DNA of 64,000 nt, taken from contig NZ_JAEPNI010000001.1 in NCBI RefSeq assembly GCF_017643475.1, positions 496,001-560,000 of the forward strand, given 5' to 3'. How positions within the stretch are numbered: position 1 is the stretch's first letter; every line of letters begins with the position of its first letter. The stretch is from Maricaulis sp. GTDB lineage: Bacteria > Pseudomonadota > Alphaproteobacteria > Caulobacterales > Maricaulaceae. Shown here piece by piece: positions 4,557 through 54,531 of this stretch. The position numbers and the translations under genes were made by a program. The notes beneath the pieces are model-generated. The model was not told the origin of the DNA. It searched no databases and was given only the letters and a program-made list of their open reading frames with translations.

Positions 4557-4630
4557 GCGGATCTCCTCGTCTGGCGAGGAGAATGACGCCTGTTCGCGGA
4601 AGTGCAAGCGGGAAGAAAGGAGGCCGGCGC

Positions 4631-4711
4631 TTAAGCGCGCCGGCACTCCGCACGGTAGTGATAAGCCGCTCCGAGCGCCAGAAGCGCCGAGAGCAGAAGT
4701 ATGATTTGCAT
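4631..4711 (-). CDS. Small membrane peptide, 26 residues
   Basis: A short minus-strand frame starts with ATG at 4711 and stops with TAA at 4631. It begins MQIILLLSALLALGAAY, one clear hydrophobic segment of about 17 residues, and ends in a basic tail (HYRAECRRA). A GGGGAGG Shine-Dalgarno lies seven bases before the ATG, which is strong support for translation. Its stop lies in a GCGCTTAAGCGC palindrome flanked by GCCGG repeats, which could act as a weak hairpin end. It lies 75 bases upstream of the creatininase gene on the same strand. Peptides of this shape often regulate or stabilise membrane proteins; the role here is unknown. Confidence 0.55.
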   Translation of the reverse strand: MQIILLLSALLALGAAYHYRAECRRA

Positions 4712-4879
4712 TGTACGGCCTCCCCGGCCCCCCGGTACGAATCAGTATCGGGTCGGGAAGAGAATCGCGCTCAAGTCCAAACCAAAGGTAAAATACCCGC
4801 GGGGGTGTCACGGGTTCGTGACTGGAAGCGTAAAGTATTTCTGTTGCAAGTATTCGACAGGGAGCAAATGGGGAAATCA

Positions 4880-11771: not shown

Positions 11772-12635
11772 CTAGTCGACCGCGACACGAATTTCGCCGG
11801 CGGTGTTGACGACCGCGCGTTTCATGCCGGGAGAATTGAAAATATCGACGACCGTGCCGTCACGTCCCACGGCGATGATACCGCCTTCTCCGCCCAGCTT
11901 GCCAACAGCATCTACAGTGGCGCGGGTGGCGTCGGTGACACTGGCGCCGCCGAACTCGATACGGGCGGCCAGGTCCTTGGCGGCTGCCAGTCGCATGAAA
12001 AACTCACCCTGGCCGGTACAGGAAATGGCGACCTGGTCATCCGCCCAGGTGCCCGACCCGATGATCGGACAATCGCCGACCCTGCCTTCAAGCTTGTTGA
12101 GTGTTCCGCCCGTCGAGGTGGCCGCGGCAAGGCGTCCCTGGCTGTCCAGGGCAACAGCACCGACCGTGCCGGTGGGAAACTCACGATCGTCCGGCTCGGC
12201 CGCGGGGACATAATAATCATTCACGCTCTCGACGCGTTCGAACGCGCCCAGGCTGGCGAAGTTTACCGCCCCATTGCCGGCGACCATGACATGCGGTGTC
12301 TTTTCCATGACGGCCCGGGCCACCCGGATCGGGCTGACAAAGCCGGTCAGCGTGGCGACGGAACCGGCCGCGCGGCTTTCGCCATCCATGATGGCAGCAT
12401 CCAGCTCATAGCTGCCCGCCGCGTTCGGGGAAGAGCCCTTGCCCGCCACGTAAAGTCCGGAGGCTTCCAGATCCTCGACCATGGCAGTCACGACATCGAT
12501 TGCCCGGCCGCCGGAATGCAGCATGCTGCGACCGCGCTGCGCCAGGGCAGAAAGATGGGCACGCACATCCTTGTAATCATGATCGCCGAGAACGCCGGCG
12601 CCGCCATGAATGGCCAGGGCTGTGGGAGAGGTCAT
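11772..12635 (-). CDS. iaaA: Isoaspartyl peptidase / L-asparaginase (Ntn-hydrolase)
   Basis: The 287-residue precursor starts with AIHGGAG, the family's N-terminal signature. The autocleavage site is GTVGAVALD with Thr157 as the new N-terminal nucleophile, followed by STGGTLNKLEGRVGD and GSGTWAD, which form the substrate pocket. The enzyme removes N-terminal isoaspartyl residues and hydrolyses asparagine after self-cleavage into alpha and beta chains. No signal peptide is present, so it is cytosolic. It is the first gene of a pair with the SpoU methyltransferase. The gene diverges from the structured RNA candidate that begins about 135 bases upstream. Confidence 0.92.
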   Translation of the reverse strand: MTSPTALAIHGGAGVLGDHDYKDVRAHLSALAQRGRSMLHSGGRAIDVVTAMVEDLEASGLYVAGKGSSPNAAGSYELDAAIMDGESRAAGSVATLTGFVSPIRVARAVMEKTPHVMVAGNGAVNFASLGAFERVESVNDYYVPAAEPDDREFPTGTVGAVALDSQGRLAAATSTGGTLNKLEGRVGDCPIIGSGTWADDQVAISCTGQGEFFMRLAAAKDLAARIEFGGASVTDATRATVDAVGKLGGEGGIIAVGRDGTVVDIFNSPGMKRAVVNTAGEIRVAVD

Positions 12636-12769
12636 GGTCAGGGCTCCTCAAACCGCGAGTGATTTGGCGCCTCTAACATTACGCGCGGGGAAAGCGAACC
12701 AAATTTTGCCTGCGACACTTCTCCCCTGCGCCCGCGTGTCGCATATACCCGCTATGAAATTGTGGTTAA

Positions 12770-12962
12770 ATGGTCAGGTCGAAACGCTTTGAGGGCGGTC
12801 TTTCCTATCCCGGTGCCTTCCTCAAGCGTAGAGATGCACAGACCTGACTTGGTTTTGCTCACGCTCACGAGCAATACCGGCCATCCGGACAGGCAGTCTT
12901 CCCAGTCTGTCTGTCCTCTTCCCGACACGCGCGACCTGGACGCAGGTCGCGCGTTTTCTTTT
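12770..12962 (+). ncRNA. Structured RNA candidate (sRNA or leader), unknown family
   Basis: A gap of 383 bases between the isoaspartyl peptidase and SDR genes has no credible protein gene but folds into four consecutive helices. Helix 1 pairs GTCAGGTC (12773-12780) with GACCTGAC (12841-12848) and encloses ACGCTTTGAGG (12784-12794) paired with CCTCAAGCGT (12820-12829). Helix 2 pairs TTGCTC (12855-12860) with GAGCAA (12869-12874). Helix 3 pairs GGACAGGCAG (12887-12896) with CTGTCTGTCC (12907-12916). Helix 4 is a ten-pair terminator stem. The series ends in a U tract 57 bases before the SDR start, so this is either an independent sRNA or a transcription-attenuating leader. No known riboswitch, 6S, SRP or tmRNA signature was recognised. 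No clear promoter could be placed. Confidence 0.6.
12928..12960 (+). terminator. Intrinsic terminator of the RNA candidate
   Basis: Perfect ten-pair stem CGCGCGACCT (12928-12937) with AGGTCGCGCG (12944-12953), six-base loop, then TTTTCTTTTC. The polarity is plus strand, so it ends transcription before the SDR gene. Confidence 0.85.
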
Positions 12963-13018
12963 CGCCGGCGACGCGTTATGTCCCTTGGATAAATTCAACG
13001 TCGAGGGGATGAATTCCG

Positions 13019-13801
13019 ATGAAACTTGACTCTTCCATCGCCGCCATCGTGACCGGCGGTGCTTCCGGTTTGGGCGAAGGTACGGCACGCCGCCTGGCGG
13101 CCGAGGGCGCGAAAGTCGCTATTTTTGACATGAACGTCGAGCGCGGCGAACAGGTCGCCAGCGAAATCGGTGGTGTGTTCTGTCACGTCAATGTCGCCGA
13201 CGAGGACAGCGTCAATGCCGGTTTTGAAAAGGCCCGCGCCGCTCACGGCCAGGAACGTGTTTTGGTGAATTGTGCCGGCATTGGTGCAGCGGAAAAGACC
13301 GCGCGCCGTTCCGGTTCCACCGGCGAGGTATCGGCACACGATATGGGCCGCTTCACCCGCGTCATCTCGATCAATCTCATCGGTTCCTTCATGTGTGCAG
13401 CCAAGGCGGCTGAAGGCATGATGGGCCTGGACCCGCTGGACGGCTCCGGCCGCGGCGTCATCATCCACACCGCATCGGTGGCGGCACAGGACGGCCAGAT
13501 CGGCCAGGTCGCCTATTCTGCTTCGAAGGGCGGTATCTATGGCATGACCCTGCCGATGGCCCGCGATCTCGCCAAGGAAGGTATTCGTGTGAACACGATC
13601 CTGCCGGGCTTCTTTGAAACACCGATCTATCAGCAGATGCCGCCGGAAGTGAAAGTGAACCTCGCTGCGCACCTGCAATTCCCGCAGCGTTTCGGCACGC
13701 CGGAAGAATATGCGGACCTGGTGAACTTCATGGTCTCCAGCGACTACATCAATGCCGAGTGTGTCCGTCTGGACGCCGGCGCCCGCATGCCTCCGAAATA
13801 G
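13019..13801 (+). CDS. SDR family oxidoreductase, 3-hydroxyacyl-CoA dehydrogenase type
   Basis: The 260-residue short-chain dehydrogenase has the NAD-binding TGGASGLGEG (residues 13-22), an acidic residue after the second strand (FDMNVERG, favouring NAD), NCAGI in the NNAG position, and the catalytic Ser-Tyr-Lys (HTASVAA, then YSASKGG). The overall pattern, including the insertion GSTGEVSAHDMG, resembles the type II 3-hydroxyacyl-CoA dehydrogenases (HSD17B10-like), which act in beta-oxidation. It is preceded by a structured RNA with a terminator and followed by its own terminator, so it is a single-gene unit. Substrate is inferred from similarity only. Confidence 0.88.
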   Translation: MKLDSSIAAIVTGGASGLGEGTARRLAAEGAKVAIFDMNVERGEQVASEIGGVFCHVNVADEDSVNAGFEKARAAHGQERVLVNCAGIGAAEKTARRSGSTGEVSAHDMGRFTRVISINLIGSFMCAAKAAEGMMGLDPLDGSGRGVIIHTASVAAQDGQIGQVAYSASKGGIYGMTLPMARDLAKEGIRVNTILPGFFETPIYQQMPPEVKVNLAAHLQFPQRFGTPEEYADLVNFMVSSDYINAECVRLDAGARMPPK

Positions 13802-13823
13802 GGCGGAGGCAAATCCGTTATGC

Positions 13824-13859
13824 AAAAACGGCGGCCCCGTGGGTCGCCGTTTTTCTTTT
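13824..13859 (+). terminator. Intrinsic terminator after the SDR gene
   Basis: AAAAACGGCG pairs with CGCCGTTTTT around a GGCCCCGTGGGT loop region and runs into TTTTTCTTTT. Confidence 0.8.
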
Positions 13860-13967
13860 GCTTATTTTTTCAATGACTTCGGGGGTTTTGGGCCTGTTGC
13901 CAAATTGCCGCTGTTTCCGCGCAAACCGTTCTAGTGGGCTAGACTGCGAATTTGTCGCAGGTAAGAT

Positions 13968-13986
13968 GCATTTGAAAATCATTCCT
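13968..13986 (+). promoter_or_regulatory. Weak Fur-box-like sequence before the TonB-dependent receptor
   Basis: The stretch GCATTTGAAAATCATTCCT matches the central part of the classical 19-base Fur box (TGAxAATCATT) but only about 11 of 19 positions overall. Its place 45 bases before a siderophore-receptor start is the main support. Confidence 0.25.
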
Positions 13987-14031
13987 AAGAGCGTATACCG
14001 GCGCCGAAACATATTGAGTGGGATCTCATCA

Positions 14032-16149
14032 ATGAAACTTCGTGTAACCAACCTTCTCGCGGTCAGCGCCATCGCTCTCGCCGCGGCCGCTCCGGCTTCG
14101 TTCGCTCAGCAGGACGGTGAAATTTCTGACCAGATCGTTGTGACGGGGACGTATCTCTACAACGACCAGGTCAATGCCCTGCGTACGCCAACACCGATCA
14201 TCGACGTTCCGCAGAGCTTGACGATCGTCACGTCCGACCAATTCCATCGGCAAGGCTTCGACAGCATCGGCGACATTATCAACTACATCCCGGGTGTCTC
14301 TAACTCCCAAGGCGAAGGTCACCGAGATTCCGTTGTCTTCCGCGGTGTTCGCTCTACGGCTGACTTCTTCATTGATGGTGTGCGTGATGACGTCCAGTAC
14401 TATCGCCCGCTCTATAACATCGAGCAGGTCGAGATCCTGCGTGGACCGAACGCGCTTCTGTTCGGACGCGGTGGCACAGGCGGTATCCTGAATCGTGTCA
14501 CAAAAAAGGGCATCATCGGCGAGCAGTTCACTGGCTATCGTGCCTCGATTGATACGTTTGGCGCATTCGGTGTCGAACTGGACACGAACATCTCCTCGAC
14601 TGACACGTCTGCATTCCGTCTCAATGCGATGTATGAGAGCCTCGACAATCACCGCGACTTTTACGACGGCACCCAGATCGGCCTCAATCCGACTGCTCAT
14701 TTCGAGCTGAGCGATGCGACGTCTCTGGATCTGTCCTATGAGTATGTCGACCATGAACGTTTCATTGATCGCGGCATCCCGACTGGCACCAATGGCGAGC
14801 CTGTCGAGGCATTCCAGGACATCGTGTTTGGTGATCCGGAACTCAACACGACGGAGCTCCAGGCGCACATTTTCCGCGCGACGCTTCAGCACCGAATCTC
14901 CGACACGCTCAAGGGCCGCGTGAGTGCATTCTACGGCGATTATGACAAGATGTACCAGAACCTCTATGCGTCAGGTTATGACCAGGCCGGTTCTCCGAAT
15001 GTTGTCACTCTGGATGGCTATCTCGACACGACACAGCGTCAGAATCTGATCCTGTCGGGTGACCTGATCGGTGAATTCCAGATGGGTGGCCTGCGCCACA
15101 CTGTAGTTGCCGGCGCTGAGTTCATTGACACTGTCAACAACAACGATCGCTACAACACCTTCTTCAACCAAACTTCAGACGACAATGAGAGCTTCATCAT
15201 TGAGCGTCCGTTGAACATCCGCGGTGGCGTTGGCGTCAATGCAAGCGGCGATCCGACCAGCAATGATTTCACCGTTTCGATCAATGACGACACCGAAGCA
15301 GACGTATCCGTATTCTCGGTCTATCTTCAAGATGAGATCGAGATCTCCGAGAAACTAGACATCATTATCGGTGCTCGTTTCGACAGCTTCGACATCGACG
15401 TCTACAACGTCGTTGCAGACGAAAGCCGTTCGCGTACCGACGAGGAAATCTCTCCGCGTTTCGGCGTCGTCTATAAGCCGATGGAAAACGTCTCTCTGTA
15501 CGGCAGCTATTCCGAGAGTTTCCTGCCCCGTAGTGGCGAGCAGTTCGCCAATATCAACGGCAGCAATAACGCTCTCGACCCGAACACATACACGAACGTG
15601 GAAGCAGGCGTTAAATGGGATTTCTCCTCAAATCTCAGCTTCACTGCTGCGGTGTTTGAGATCGAGCAGAGTTCTCCGCAGGTTGCCGACAATGATCCGT
15701 CCACGCTTGACGTGATAGACTCCGAGACGACGGGCTTTGAAGCTCAGTTGCAGGGTCAGCTTACCGACCAGTGGTTCGTGTCCGCTGGCTACAGCCGACT
15801 AAATGGTGAAATCATCAATCGCAATGGAGCAACGGGCCTGCGTCCGCGGGAGTTGCCCGAAAACATGTTCTCGATCTGGTCCGGCTTTCAGCTCAACGAC
15901 CAGTTCGGCTTTGGCGCTGGATTGACCTATCAGGATGAGAGTTTCATCAACAATTCGAACTCGGCGGTTCTGCCGGCATTTACACGTGTAGACGCCGCTG
16001 TTTTCTACGACGTGTCGGATAATTTCCGCGTGCAGTTGAATGTCGAGAACTTGACAGATGAGCTCTATTTCCCGACCTCGCACAGCACGCACCAGGCAAC
16101 TGTTGGGGCTCCGCTGAACGCACGCCTCACGATTAGCGGTCAGTTCTGA
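14032..16149 (+). CDS. TonB-dependent siderophore receptor
   Basis: The 705-residue outer-membrane receptor starts with a Sec signal peptide (MKLRVTNLLAVSAIALAAAA, cleavage near Ala25), then a TonB-box-like SDQIVVTG. The plug domain includes IDVPQSLTIVTSDQF, SIGDIINYIPGV and VEILRGPNALLFGRGGTGG, which match the FhuA/FoxA siderophore-receptor branch. The barrel follows with alternating aromatic strands and ends LTISGQF with the terminal Phe needed by the BAM machinery. It would import ferric siderophores using TonB energy. The ATG at 14032 is used because it directly begins the signal peptide; the frame is open far upstream through the SDR terminator. Single gene, closed by a terminator. Confidence 0.93.
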   Translation: MKLRVTNLLAVSAIALAAAAPASFAQQDGEISDQIVVTGTYLYNDQVNALRTPTPIIDVPQSLTIVTSDQFHRQGFDSIGDIINYIPGVSNSQGEGHRDSVVFRGVRSTADFFIDGVRDDVQYYRPLYNIEQVEILRGPNALLFGRGGTGGILNRVTKKGIIGEQFTGYRASIDTFGAFGVELDTNISSTDTSAFRLNAMYESLDNHRDFYDGTQIGLNPTAHFELSDATSLDLSYEYVDHERFIDRGIPTGTNGEPVEAFQDIVFGDPELNTTELQAHIFRATLQHRISDTLKGRVSAFYGDYDKMYQNLYASGYDQAGSPNVVTLDGYLDTTQRQNLILSGDLIGEFQMGGLRHTVVAGAEFIDTVNNNDRYNTFFNQTSDDNESFIIERPLNIRGGVGVNASGDPTSNDFTVSINDDTEADVSVFSVYLQDEIEISEKLDIIIGARFDSFDIDVYNVVADESRSRTDEEISPRFGVVYKPMENVSLYGSYSESFLPRSGEQFANINGSNNALDPNTYTNVEAGVKWDFSSNLSFTAAVFEIEQSSPQVADNDPSTLDVIDSETTGFEAQLQGQLTDQWFVSAGYSRLNGEIINRNGATGLRPRELPENMFSIWSGFQLNDQFGFGAGLTYQDESFINNSNSAVLPAFTRVDAAVFYDVSDNFRVQLNVENLTDELYFPTSHSTHQATVGAPLNARLTISGQF

Positions 16150-19993: not shown

Positions 19994-22183
19994 ATGTCGA
20001 GACGTATCGCGACTTGGTCAGCGGCGATCAGCGCGCTGACGATTGCAGCCTGCAGCCCGTCACAGCCAGGAGACCAGGAAACAGTGGCCAGCGACACTGA
20101 AACCGAAAACACCGGGCGCCAGATCGTCCAGATCGATCCCAGCAATGACCCGCGGGTCTGGCTGGAAGAGGTCGAGGGCGAGGATGCCATGGTCTGGGTC
20201 GAAGGCCAGAATGAACGCACTTATGAACGCCTCCAGGGTGATGCGCTCTACCAGGAGCTCTTCGATGAGGCGCTCTCGATCTATGAGAGCAATGACCGTA
20301 TTCCTTACGGCTCTTTTTATGCCGGTTATGTCTGGAATTTCTGGCAGGACGCCGAGAATACGCATGGCCTCTGGCGTCGTACCTCGCTGGAAAGCTATCT
20401 CTCTGACAGCCCGGACTGGGATGTAATCCTGGACCTGGATGCCCTGTCCGAAGCGGAAGGCCGTAACTGGGTCTGGCGGGGATCCAACTGCCTGACTCCG
20501 GATTATGACCGCTGTATCCTGACGCTGTCGGACGGTGGTTCCGATGCCGCGGTTCGCCGCGAATTCCTGATCTCCGAACGCGCCTTTGTCGAGGACGGTT
20601 TCATTACGCCGGAATCCAAGGGCGGTATCGACTGGATCGACGAGAACACGGTGATGATCGGTCTTGCCATCGGTGAGGAAGACAGCACGGATTCCGGTTA
20701 TGCCAGTGTCGCCTATCGCTGGGAACGGGGCACGCCGTATGAAAGCGCCACCGAGATCATTCGCGGCGATCGCACGGACGTCGCCATGTGGGGCTTCCGC
20801 ATGGAAGACAGCGACGGCACCGCCTACATGATGATGAGCCAGGCCGTCACCTTCTATGACACGGTGTACTGGCATCTGCCCGATGGCGGCGAGCCGATGC
20901 AGATGCCTCTGCCGGCCAAGTCGTCCCTGCGGGCCCTTTACCAGGACCAGCTGGTCTTCACGGTCGAGGAAGACTGGACCCCGGTCGAGGGTGGCACGAC
21001 TTACGCCCAGGGCTCGGTTCTGTCCTTCTCCATGTCGGAATTTGCGGCCAATGGTGAACTGCCCCAGATCTTCACCGTCTACATGCCGCGAGAGCGCCAG
21101 TCGGTGGGCTCGATCCAGTCGACCCGCTCTGCCCTGCTCATGGCGATCGACGAGAATGTCGTCGGCGGTATCGAGGCGTTCAGCTTTGCGGGTGACGAAT
21201 GGACCTCCGAATCCGTTCCGGTCCCGGAAAACCTGACCTTGTCAATCAGCTCTGCGGACAGCGGCGAGGATATCTTCTTCTTCAATGCCGAGGGCTTCCT
21301 GACGCCGGACACGCTCTACATGGGCAATGTCGCCGACATGACCGTTAACCCGATCAAGTCGATCCCGGAGCGTTTCAATGCCGAGGGCCTGATCGTGGAG
21401 CAGCTGGAGTCCACGTCTGCGGACGGCACGCGCATCCCGTACTTCGTGGTCCGCCACGAAGATACGGTGATGGATGGGTCCACGCCGACACTGCTCTATG
21501 CCTATGGCGGTTTCGAGGTTTCCATCCGTCCAAGCTATTCCGGTTCGCGTGGCCGTCTGTGGCTGGAGCGCGGCGGCGCCTATGTGGTGGCCAATATCCG
21601 CGGCGGTGGCGAGTTTGGCCCGTCCTGGCACCAGGCTGGTCTGAAAATGGATCGCCAGCGCATTTATGACGACCTTATCTCGGTCGCCGAGGACATGCAT
21701 ACGCGTGGCCTCACCAGCCCGCGCCGCACGGCCGTCTATGGCGGATCCAATGGCGGCCTGCTGACCGGTGTCATGTATACCCAGCGTCCGGACCTGTGGA
21801 ATGCCGTGGTCTCGGCGGTTCCGCTGCTGGACATGCTGCGTTTCCACACCCTGCTGGCCGGGGCGTCCTGGATGGGCGAATACGGCAACCCGGAAGATCC
21901 GGATGAGGGCAGTTTCCTGCGCTCGATCTCGCCCTACCACAATGTGGATGCGAACGGCGATTATCCGGAAATCTACATCTACACCTCAACCAAGGATGAC
22001 CGCGTCCATCCGGGCCATGCCCGCAAGATGGCGCACCTCCTGGAAGAGCTTGGCCATGAGTATCTCTATTACGAGAACACCGAGGGCGGTCATGCTGCCG
22101 CAGCGGACCTCTCCGAGTATGCCCGCCGCGACGCCATGCTCTACACCTTCCTGATGCAGAACCTCATGGGTGATGACGAATAG
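19994..22183 (+). CDS. Prolyl oligopeptidase family (S9A) lipoprotein
   Basis: The 729-residue protein starts with a lipoprotein signal (ATWSAAISALTIAAC), then the S9A propeller (begins DPRVWLEEVEGEDAMVWVE) and an alpha/beta-hydrolase domain. The catalytic triad is Ser585 in YGGSNGG, Asp668 in KDDRVHP and His700 in EGGHAAA. It would cleave prolyl bonds of short peptides, probably in the periplasm, given the lipid anchor. AGGGGAG seven bases before the ATG supports the start. It diverges from dapF and ends in a strong terminator. Confidence 0.93.
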   Translation: MSRRIATWSAAISALTIAACSPSQPGDQETVASDTETENTGRQIVQIDPSNDPRVWLEEVEGEDAMVWVEGQNERTYERLQGDALYQELFDEALSIYESNDRIPYGSFYAGYVWNFWQDAENTHGLWRRTSLESYLSDSPDWDVILDLDALSEAEGRNWVWRGSNCLTPDYDRCILTLSDGGSDAAVRREFLISERAFVEDGFITPESKGGIDWIDENTVMIGLAIGEEDSTDSGYASVAYRWERGTPYESATEIIRGDRTDVAMWGFRMEDSDGTAYMMMSQAVTFYDTVYWHLPDGGEPMQMPLPAKSSLRALYQDQLVFTVEEDWTPVEGGTTYAQGSVLSFSMSEFAANGELPQIFTVYMPRERQSVGSIQSTRSALLMAIDENVVGGIEAFSFAGDEWTSESVPVPENLTLSISSADSGEDIFFFNAEGFLTPDTLYMGNVADMTVNPIKSIPERFNAEGLIVEQLESTSADGTRIPYFVVRHEDTVMDGSTPTLLYAYGGFEVSIRPSYSGSRGRLWLERGGAYVVANIRGGGEFGPSWHQAGLKMDRQRIYDDLISVAEDMHTRGLTSPRRTAVYGGSNGGLLTGVMYTQRPDLWNAVVSAVPLLDMLRFHTLLAGASWMGEYGNPEDPDEGSFLRSISPYHNVDANGDYPEIYIYTSTKDDRVHPGHARKMAHLLEELGHEYLYYENTEGGHAAAADLSEYARRDAMLYTFLMQNLMGDDE

Positions 22184-53722: not shown

Positions 53723-53904
53723 TTAAAGGGTTGCTCCAGTACAGCGCGGTCAGGCTGAAAATCGTTGATTGCGCTGTCTAAGTGCTGATGAATCAGCGGG
53801 TTAGAGTTCAAACAAGAGTGGGCCGAACGCTACCCTTTGCTCCGGAAGGGAGCATTTCAGGTGTCATCCGGTACTCGGCTGTGTTTGCAGAATCCCCGGA
53901 AGTG

Positions 53905-54531
53905 TCACGCCTTTTGGCGCTTTTCCACAATCCGGACGGCCTCCGCAATGGCCGCGTCTATACTCAAGGATGACGTATCAAGCAAGGTTGCATCATCTGC
54001 CTTGCGCATGGGCGCATCCGTGCGCTCGGCGTCGCGTGCATCCCGCGAGAGTGTCTGGGCGAGCATTTCCTCGAAGGTGATGGGGTCGCCCTTGGCATTG
54101 AGCTCGCTCTGGCGACGGCGGGCACGCGTCTCCGGATCGGCCGTGACAAAGAGTTTTACCTCAGCATCGGGGCAGATCACCGTACCGATATCGCGCCCGT
54201 CCAGAATCGCTCCTCCCGGCTGGGTGGCAAAGGCGCGCTGGACTTCGAACAGGGCGTCGCGAACAGCTTGTTGTTTCGCGACTTGGGAGGCGGCCTGGCC
54301 GACGGCTGCGGTGCGGATACGGGCTTCGTCAATCGACGTCACATCCAGCGTGCGCGCGGCCTCTACTGCGGCGGTTTCGTCGTTTGGGTCGTGGCCGGCA
54401 TCCAGCACAGCCAAAGCGGCTGCGCGGTACAGGCTGCCTGTATCCAGATAGGGCAGGCTGAATTTCTGCGACAGGGCTCGCGCAATCGTGCCCTTGCCCG
54501 AGGCCAGCGGTCCGTCGACGGCGATGATCAT
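53905..54531 (-). CDS. cmk: Cytidylate kinase
   Basis: The 208-residue kinase has P-loop IAVDGPLASGKGTIARAL, YLDTGSLYRAAA, ILDGRDIGTVICPDAEVKLFVTA and RRRQSEL. It phosphorylates CMP and dCMP. ATG overlaps the aroA stop (ATGA), so the two are coupled. A 180-base gap before rpsA probably holds the rpsA promoter. Confidence 0.96.
   Translation of the reverse strand: MIIAVDGPLASGKGTIARALSQKFSLPYLDTGSLYRAAALAVLDAGHDPNDETAAVEAARTLDVTSIDEARIRTAAVGQAASQVAKQQAVRDALFEVQRAFATQPGGAILDGRDIGTVICPDAEVKLFVTADPETRARRRQSELNAKGDPITFEEMLAQTLSRDARDAERTDAPMRKADDATLLDTSSLSIDAAIAEAVRIVEKRQKA

Follow-up and report, generated by a model that had tools for sequence, protein, structure and literature searches.

According to the accessible parts of PMC5869019, GsrN of Caulobacter is a general-stress sRNA whose C-rich loop pairs with G-rich mRNA leaders, the RNA ending near nucleotide 106 and carrying the C-rich loop at its 5' end; the search for homologues relied on an EcfG promoter and on proximity to the stress regulators. 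The portions of PMC12559287 that were consulted describe the alpha-R8 family, SisA-D of Caulobacter, as RNAs composed of a weak hairpin, a single-stranded UUUCCUCCCU and a terminator, and the corresponding portions of PMC3927594 describe SmelA075 and SmelA099 as sRNAs with a CCUCCUCCC hairpin. The locus analysed here lies in a stretch of 64,000 nucleotides from Maricaulis sp. (the window) and would contain, in our preferred reading, which we hold with evenly balanced confidence, the gene of a free, fast-evolving sRNA of about 185 nt that base-pairs via C-rich segments and stands in a transcription unit that also housed an hsp20 gene.

The candidate RNA is located between a divergent asparaginase-2 family gene, which we take to be iaaA, and an SDR gene whose nearest named relative is that of Maricaulis sp. 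HCUG1438-2 (97% identical). The gap between the end of iaaA (12635) and the SDR start (13019) measures 383 bases, the same size as in the preliminary description of this DNA, and contains the stretch 12770-12962, whose U tract is followed by the SDR start after 56 bases on the same strand. A TonB-dependent receptor frame (window 13759-16149) is found directly 3' of the SDR gene and its terminator. The features of the locus are given in Table 1, where G002 is the nearest species and G000 the window's own genome. No mention of the RNA at 12778-12962 was found, at the level of search records, in the literature on Maricaulis non-coding or intergenic RNA, and the part of PMC13192938 (on sRNA origins) that was available holds nothing on the iaaA-SDR locus.

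Table 1. Features of the iaaA-SDR locus (window coordinates) and ar35 matches in relatives (locus handle before the coordinates).
Feature	Coordinates	Strand	Basis and remarks
Asparaginase-2 family gene (iaaA)	11772-12635	-	Pfam Asparaginase_2 2.2e-75; divergent, upstream
Putative promoter	12741-12771	+	GCATATACCC block and extended -10-like TGTGGTTAAAT (12761-12771)
Candidate RNA, ~185 nt	12778-12962	+	z -6.08, terminator; start inferred, possibly ~16 bases further upstream
Helix 1	12772-12780 with 12841-12849, 9 pairs	+	MFE fold; 6/9 pairs kept in G002
Inner hairpin 1b	12784-12829, 16 pairs, imperfect	+	MFE fold; 7/16 pairs kept in G002
Apical segment CTATCCCGG of hairpin 1b	12805-12813	+	Identical in G002
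Helix 2	12850-12879, 10 pairs	+	MFE fold; in G002 8/10 pairs gapped, 1 broken, 1 kept
Helix 3	12887-12916, 10+2 pairs	+	MFE fold; 11/12 pairs unchanged in G002
Single-stranded linker	12917-12926	+	MFE fold; second CTTCCC at 12918-12923
Intrinsic terminator	12927-12962: 12 pairs (12927-12954), then TTTTCTTTT	+	Fold and terminator finding
Putative -10 block of a separate SDR promoter	12975-12982 = GTTATGTC	+	Kept block after the U tract
SDR gene	13019-13801	+	Pfam adh_short 1.4e-44; downstream neighbour
ar35 sub-threshold match	L036:1439-1540	-	
ar35 sub-threshold match	L035:1404-1479	+	
ar35 sub-threshold match	L037:1442-1527	-	

The RNA had been described as belonging to no recognised family, and the Rfam search agrees with this: at gathering scores there was no match at 12770-12962, and a permissive search of 12640-13020 returned only ncS025 (18.6 bits) and, on the other strand, Methylosinus-1 (9.6 bits), both far below their cut-offs. 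The 6S RNA model (RF00013) does not match at the locus; its best candidate lies at another place in the genome (G000 C7:1075241-1075399, L119) and at 40.2 bits is below the Rfam cut-off of 46.4. A plasmid or phage origin was rejected as well, the plasmid and phage collections giving no match at E 1e-5. A coding reading is unlikely, with non-triplet gaps relative to G002 (1, 4, 6 and 13 bases) and no Pfam match. The 76-codon GTG frame at 12762-12992 in G000, without a Pfam match, runs across the terminator, as does a 72-codon GTG frame in G002, and no plus-strand frame of at least 80 codons starts in the gap in any of the seven units lacking hsp20 that are described below. With a terminator on the same strand and no reading frame that is likely to code, the locus has these attributes of a free intergenic sRNA.

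The MFE of 12770-12962 is -88.1 kcal/mol, against -59.7 +/- 4.0 kcal/mol for 200 dinucleotide shuffles, none of which folded as well (z -7.07). The helices and the terminator announced in the preliminary description are present in this fold, with slightly different pair counts. If the likely -10 box, TTAAAT (12766-12771), is right, it places the start at about 12778 and leaves the larger part of helix 1's 5' arm outside the RNA. The region of helix 3 alone (12880-12924) reaches a z of -6.28, and the 5' part alone (12778-12880) a z of -1.88, with 10 of the 200 shuffles as good; most of the fold excess resides in helix 3 and the terminator, and the 5' half is ordinary. Both strands of the window were scanned in 1064 stretches of 193 bases (step 120, 20 shuffles each), with a mean z of -0.48. 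The stretch at 12841 (+), covering the 3' part of the RNA alone, had the fourth lowest value, after both strands over a tRNA gene (lowest and third lowest) and the stretch at 20761. The latter (20761-20953, minus strand, z -5.5) and two further stretches, 4561-4753 (+) and 53761-53953 (-), both with z -4.8, also fold better than their 20 shuffles. The top of helix 3 is formed by CTTCCC (12898-12903), its CT in the inner stem of two pairs and its TCCC in the loop.

To place the RNA in its genomic context, the slot between iaaA and the SDR gene was compared in 19 Maricaulis genomes. The SDR gene is present in all 19 and a close iaaA in 18; the gap is readable in 18, G010 being excluded as its contig ends inside the gap. 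Three kinds of occupancy were observed: (i) units without hsp20, long in G000, G002, G006 and G008 (gaps of 383, 367, 318 and 316 bases) and short in G001, G012 and G011 (276, 275 and 275 bases); (ii) an hsp20 gene, in G004 and G017 only (gaps of 802 and 761 bases), with its own terminator; and (iii) empty gaps of 150-175 bases in nine genomes, too short for the window's RNA. The product of the G004 gene is HSP20 by Pfam, a small heat-shock protein. At E 1e-30 an hsp20 of the slot type is absent from the other 135 of 137 family genomes, and an Hsp20-family gene is found elsewhere in the genome in all 19 Maricaulis genomes.

The units without hsp20 have a C-rich motif in common. YTYCCC, a motif defined after seeing the sequences, was counted in a 60-base segment whose end lies 28 bases ahead of the U tract (which left G003, devoid of a U tract, outside the count), and it occurs in 7 of 7 of these units, on three branches, in neither of the two hsp20 units and in none of the eight empty gaps with a U tract. 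Its background in the window is 224 of 6394 stretches of 60 bases; among the 11 terminators of the window found by script, six of the ten others being the two strands of three places, it precedes one, that of this RNA. The C run is situated in a predicted hairpin loop in G000, G002, G006 and G008, with the leading pyrimidines in a short inner stem, and in a predicted unpaired linker in G001 and G012; it is partly paired in G011. In G000 a second, unpaired copy lies in the linker. In the preferred reading the sRNA would be made from its own putative promoter and end at its own terminator, and two C-rich elements, the top of helix 3 and the CUUCCC of the linker, would cover the G-rich Shine-Dalgarno sequences of mRNAs. 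The same transcription unit appears to encode Hsp20 in two relatives, and the simplest history would be the loss of the hsp20 reading frame with promoter and terminator kept, the RNA being what remains.

A consensus scan found no sigma-70 promoter at 12741-12771, and the putative promoter was compared with its counterparts as part of 22 alignments of promoter and hsp20-coding sequence (1000 shuffles each, p uncorrected). The promoter region aligns with the hsp20 promoter of G004 for both the window (p 0.005) and G002 (p 0.004), and does not align with that of G017 (p 0.40 and 0.14, respectively). G006 and G008 align with the promoter of G002 (p 0.001 each) and weakly or not at all with that of G004 (p 0.22 and 0.05). 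Among the short units, G012 aligns with the promoter and 5' leader of the G017 hsp20 (p 0.001), G011 weakly (p 0.07) and G001 not (p 0.79), the values against G004 being 0.03, 0.74 and 0.09 for G012, G011 and G001, respectively. The terminator 3' arm, the U tract and the stretch that follows align partly or wholly with the gaps of G001, G012, G011, G017, G006, G008 and G004, and four genomes with empty gaps show a weak match at the terminator/U tract stretch. Promoter similarity that is weak or absent in several pairs counts against the preferred reading. So do the poor retention of helices 1b and 2 in the nearest species, folds of G002, G006 and G008 that scarcely exceed chance once the terminator is removed, and a motif picked by inspection in units of three branches only. 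A remnant of hsp20 coding sequence in the RNA was considered and rejected: window 12857-12905 aligned with the 3' end of the G017 gene (p 0.006), a result not repeated against G004 or in G002, G006 or G008. A heat-shock promoter was also considered; relative to the groES promoters of the genus the window's promoter gave no clear match, and heat induction is therefore not claimed. The 18 groES upstream stretches (L164-L181) share a CTTGACG promoter-like box and an inverted repeat, which we presume to be akin to CIRCE.

A DNA search of 101 genomes matched 10: besides the genome of the window and G002, eight more gave hits of 20-54 bases, four of them at the terminator and the downstream stretch of the iaaA-SDR gap. 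G002 is the sole species in which the RNA can be aligned along its length. Between the two species, 5 of 34 aligned positions differ in the promoter block 12738-12771 (0.15), 35 of 84 in the middle 12785-12886 (0.42, with 18 further positions gapped), 7 of 40 in helix 3 and linker (0.17) and 2 of 36 in the terminator (0.06), compared with 44 of 182 four-fold sites in iaaA (0.24) and 47 of 142 in SDR (0.33). Since the promoter and the 3' third change more slowly than four-fold sites, both are constrained. The middle of the RNA displays no apparent sign of constraint in this alignment, apart from the apical segment of hairpin 1b common to the two species. The terminator keeps 12 of its 12 pairs in G002, two via a change to G-U, and together with the counts of Table 1 this divides the helices: pairing persists in helix 3 and the terminator, and only in part in helices 1 and 1b, with helix 2 nearly lost. 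The proposal that all four helices are selected is therefore left without support; the selected, terminated RNA of no curated family proposed earlier is supported in part. The G002 fold has a z of -3.73 with the terminator and -1.39 without it (19 of 200 shuffles as good).

In the G006/G008 pair, 19 of 140 aligned positions of the RNA differ, against 0.31-0.38 at four-fold sites, and of the 48 pairs in the predicted fold, 38 show no change, 5 have changed but still pair, 4 are disrupted and 1 falls in a gap. Without the terminator, neither G006 (z -2.28) nor G008 (z -1.23) folds clearly better than shuffles. With the G006 RNA as DNA query, nine of 137 family genomes gave a match, over the full or nearly full length in G006 and G008 and over at most 39 bases in the other seven.

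These data bear on the possibility that the RNA is decaying hsp20 debris, whose promoter and terminator survive and may still give a transcript with no function. The presence of hsp20 in the slot of G004 and G017, a middle that diverges faster than four-fold sites, and a slot that in 18 readable gaps holds seven units without hsp20 and nine times is short and empty would all fit such decay. It does not account for the slow change of promoter, helix 3, linker and terminator relative to four-fold sites, for the well-conserved RNA of G006 and G008, or for a C-rich motif found in 7 of 7 units without hsp20 on three branches and in 0 of 2 with it, and we judge mere debris to be unlikely, while taking it seriously.

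The order of events can be considered with a tree built on RlmN, IaaA and SDR, in which the deeper forks and the root are weak. G004 groups with G000/G002 (100/98), this clade in turn joins G006/G008 (99/99), and G017 groups with G001/G011/G012 (89/90). Both an hsp20-first history, in which the frame was lost at least three times, and an RNA-first history with two insertions would be compatible with this tree. G004 and G017 are 63.6% identical in hsp20, 67.9% in iaaA and 87.3% in SDR; the closeness of the first two values suggests that hsp20 was present before the clades of G004 and G017 split, which favours hsp20 first. An old C-rich sRNA, into whose slot hsp20 was inserted later in G004 and G017, would explain the motif on three branches through single inheritance, the position of G004 nested between two RNA-bearing pairs, and the resemblance of the short G001 unit to suhB/mmgR (27.5 bits for a cut-off of 41). 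Nevertheless, it requires that the same gene was inserted twice, independently, at a single site, and is at odds with an hsp20 divergence close to that of iaaA and with the finding that, at E 1e-30, none of the 137 family genomes apart from G004 and G017 has such an hsp20. This order of events seems doubtful to us. The stronger form of the preferred reading, in which the hsp20 unit would have lost its frame at least three times in the genus and each leftover promoter-terminator cassette would have become a C-rich sRNA directed against Shine-Dalgarno sequences, is put forward as a tentative possibility. If true, a single locus would repeatedly have seen an mRNA gene turn into the gene of a regulatory RNA.

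The remaining question is the relationship of the RNA to the SDR gene, for which the preliminary description offered a free sRNA and an attenuating leader as two options. The block GCTATGNC is found before the SDR gene in 14 of 18 readable gaps, including eight of the nine empty ones, with the variants GTTATGTC in the window and G002, GCTATGAG in G004 and GCTACGCC in G003. The eight empty gaps also keep the TTTTCTTTT tract, and the ninth, that of G003, has neither tract nor block. Nine short gaps, eight of which retain both elements, indicate that the SDR gene is probably transcribed from its own promoter downstream of the RNA. Before SDR the U tract persists even in gaps that have lost the hairpin, and may thus have a role in the SDR promoter as well. 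At other loci of two relatives (L014 and L016, ~1500), terminators likewise end in TTTTCTTTT followed by GC(C/G)GGCGACGC, comparable to window 12955-12978. Sub-threshold ar35 matches (31.0-36.7 bits, cut-off 45) were noted at the terminator 3' of SDR in three relatives. For the linker and the Shine-Dalgarno stretch of the SDR gene, GUCGAGGGGA (13000-13009), a pairing of -13.7 kcal/mol is predicted, and one of -14.0 in G002; its rank of 8 among 87 mechanically listed starts of the window means that this pairing is not outstanding, and a cis effect of the linker on the SDR gene is possible on the modelled energies. That the RNA is a 5' leader of the SDR gene with its terminator acting as attenuator, as the shared strand, the 56-base spacing and this pairing would allow, is improbable, because the SDR gene probably has its own downstream promoter, the gaps of nine relatives could not hold the RNA, the slot is occupied in two others by hsp20 and a terminator of its own, and an unsystematic look at the folds revealed no competing antiterminator pairing; of the two options the free sRNA is favoured.

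If the preferred reading is right, sister species alternate a protein gene and an RNA gene in one slot with the same neighbours, and the origin of sRNAs from mRNA genes would become traceable step by step. It would also help to explain why family models miss such RNAs, their stems varying freely while short C-rich segments persist.

For the function of the RNA, the best-supported reading, by analogy, is a base pairing with ribosome-binding sites resembling that of GsrN (G-rich leaders) and SisA (5' UTRs) of Caulobacter. As far as the available parts of the GsrN article go, the window's RNA is like GsrN in being terminated, in having C-rich segments and in coming from a related bacterial group, and unlike it in its length of about 185 nt and in the position of its C-rich segments in the 3' part. 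The pattern GGAAC-N15..18-CGTT, which we take to be the EcfG consensus, was searched as an exact pattern only and occurs on neither strand of any of the 18 gaps.

The alpha-R8 family, presumably identical to mmgR/suhB (Rfam RF00519), has a layout, to judge from the portions of its source consulted, that is approached by the short units of G001 and G012. These genomes contain sub-threshold suhB/mmgR matches at L036:2320-2400 (-) with 27.5 bits and L035:2319-2396 (-) with 22.6 bits, the cut-off being 41. The window's RNA differs from the family in having no suhB match up to E 10. The same search of its own genome gave 43 matches up to E 10, the best with 24.2 bits and none over the cut-off; since all 14 control genomes also gave matches, one of them above the cut-off, weak suhB scores alone mean little. 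The loops presumed to act against Shine-Dalgarno sequences, on freely diverging stems, are like those of SmelA075/SmelA099, in the part of the source seen, and of Rfam CcsR1. The sequence read at the locus does not contain the exact CCUCCUCCC, and CcsR1 scores only 14.8 bits in the G001 unit and 15.2 in that of G006, and is not among the window's permissive matches.

Finally, Raghavan et al. 2015 reportedly dealt with the gain and loss of sRNA genes by genome rearrangement. The present locus would be like those cases in that an sRNA derives from the remains of other genes, and unlike them in that units on up to three branches share their slot, and partly their promoter, with a protein gene.
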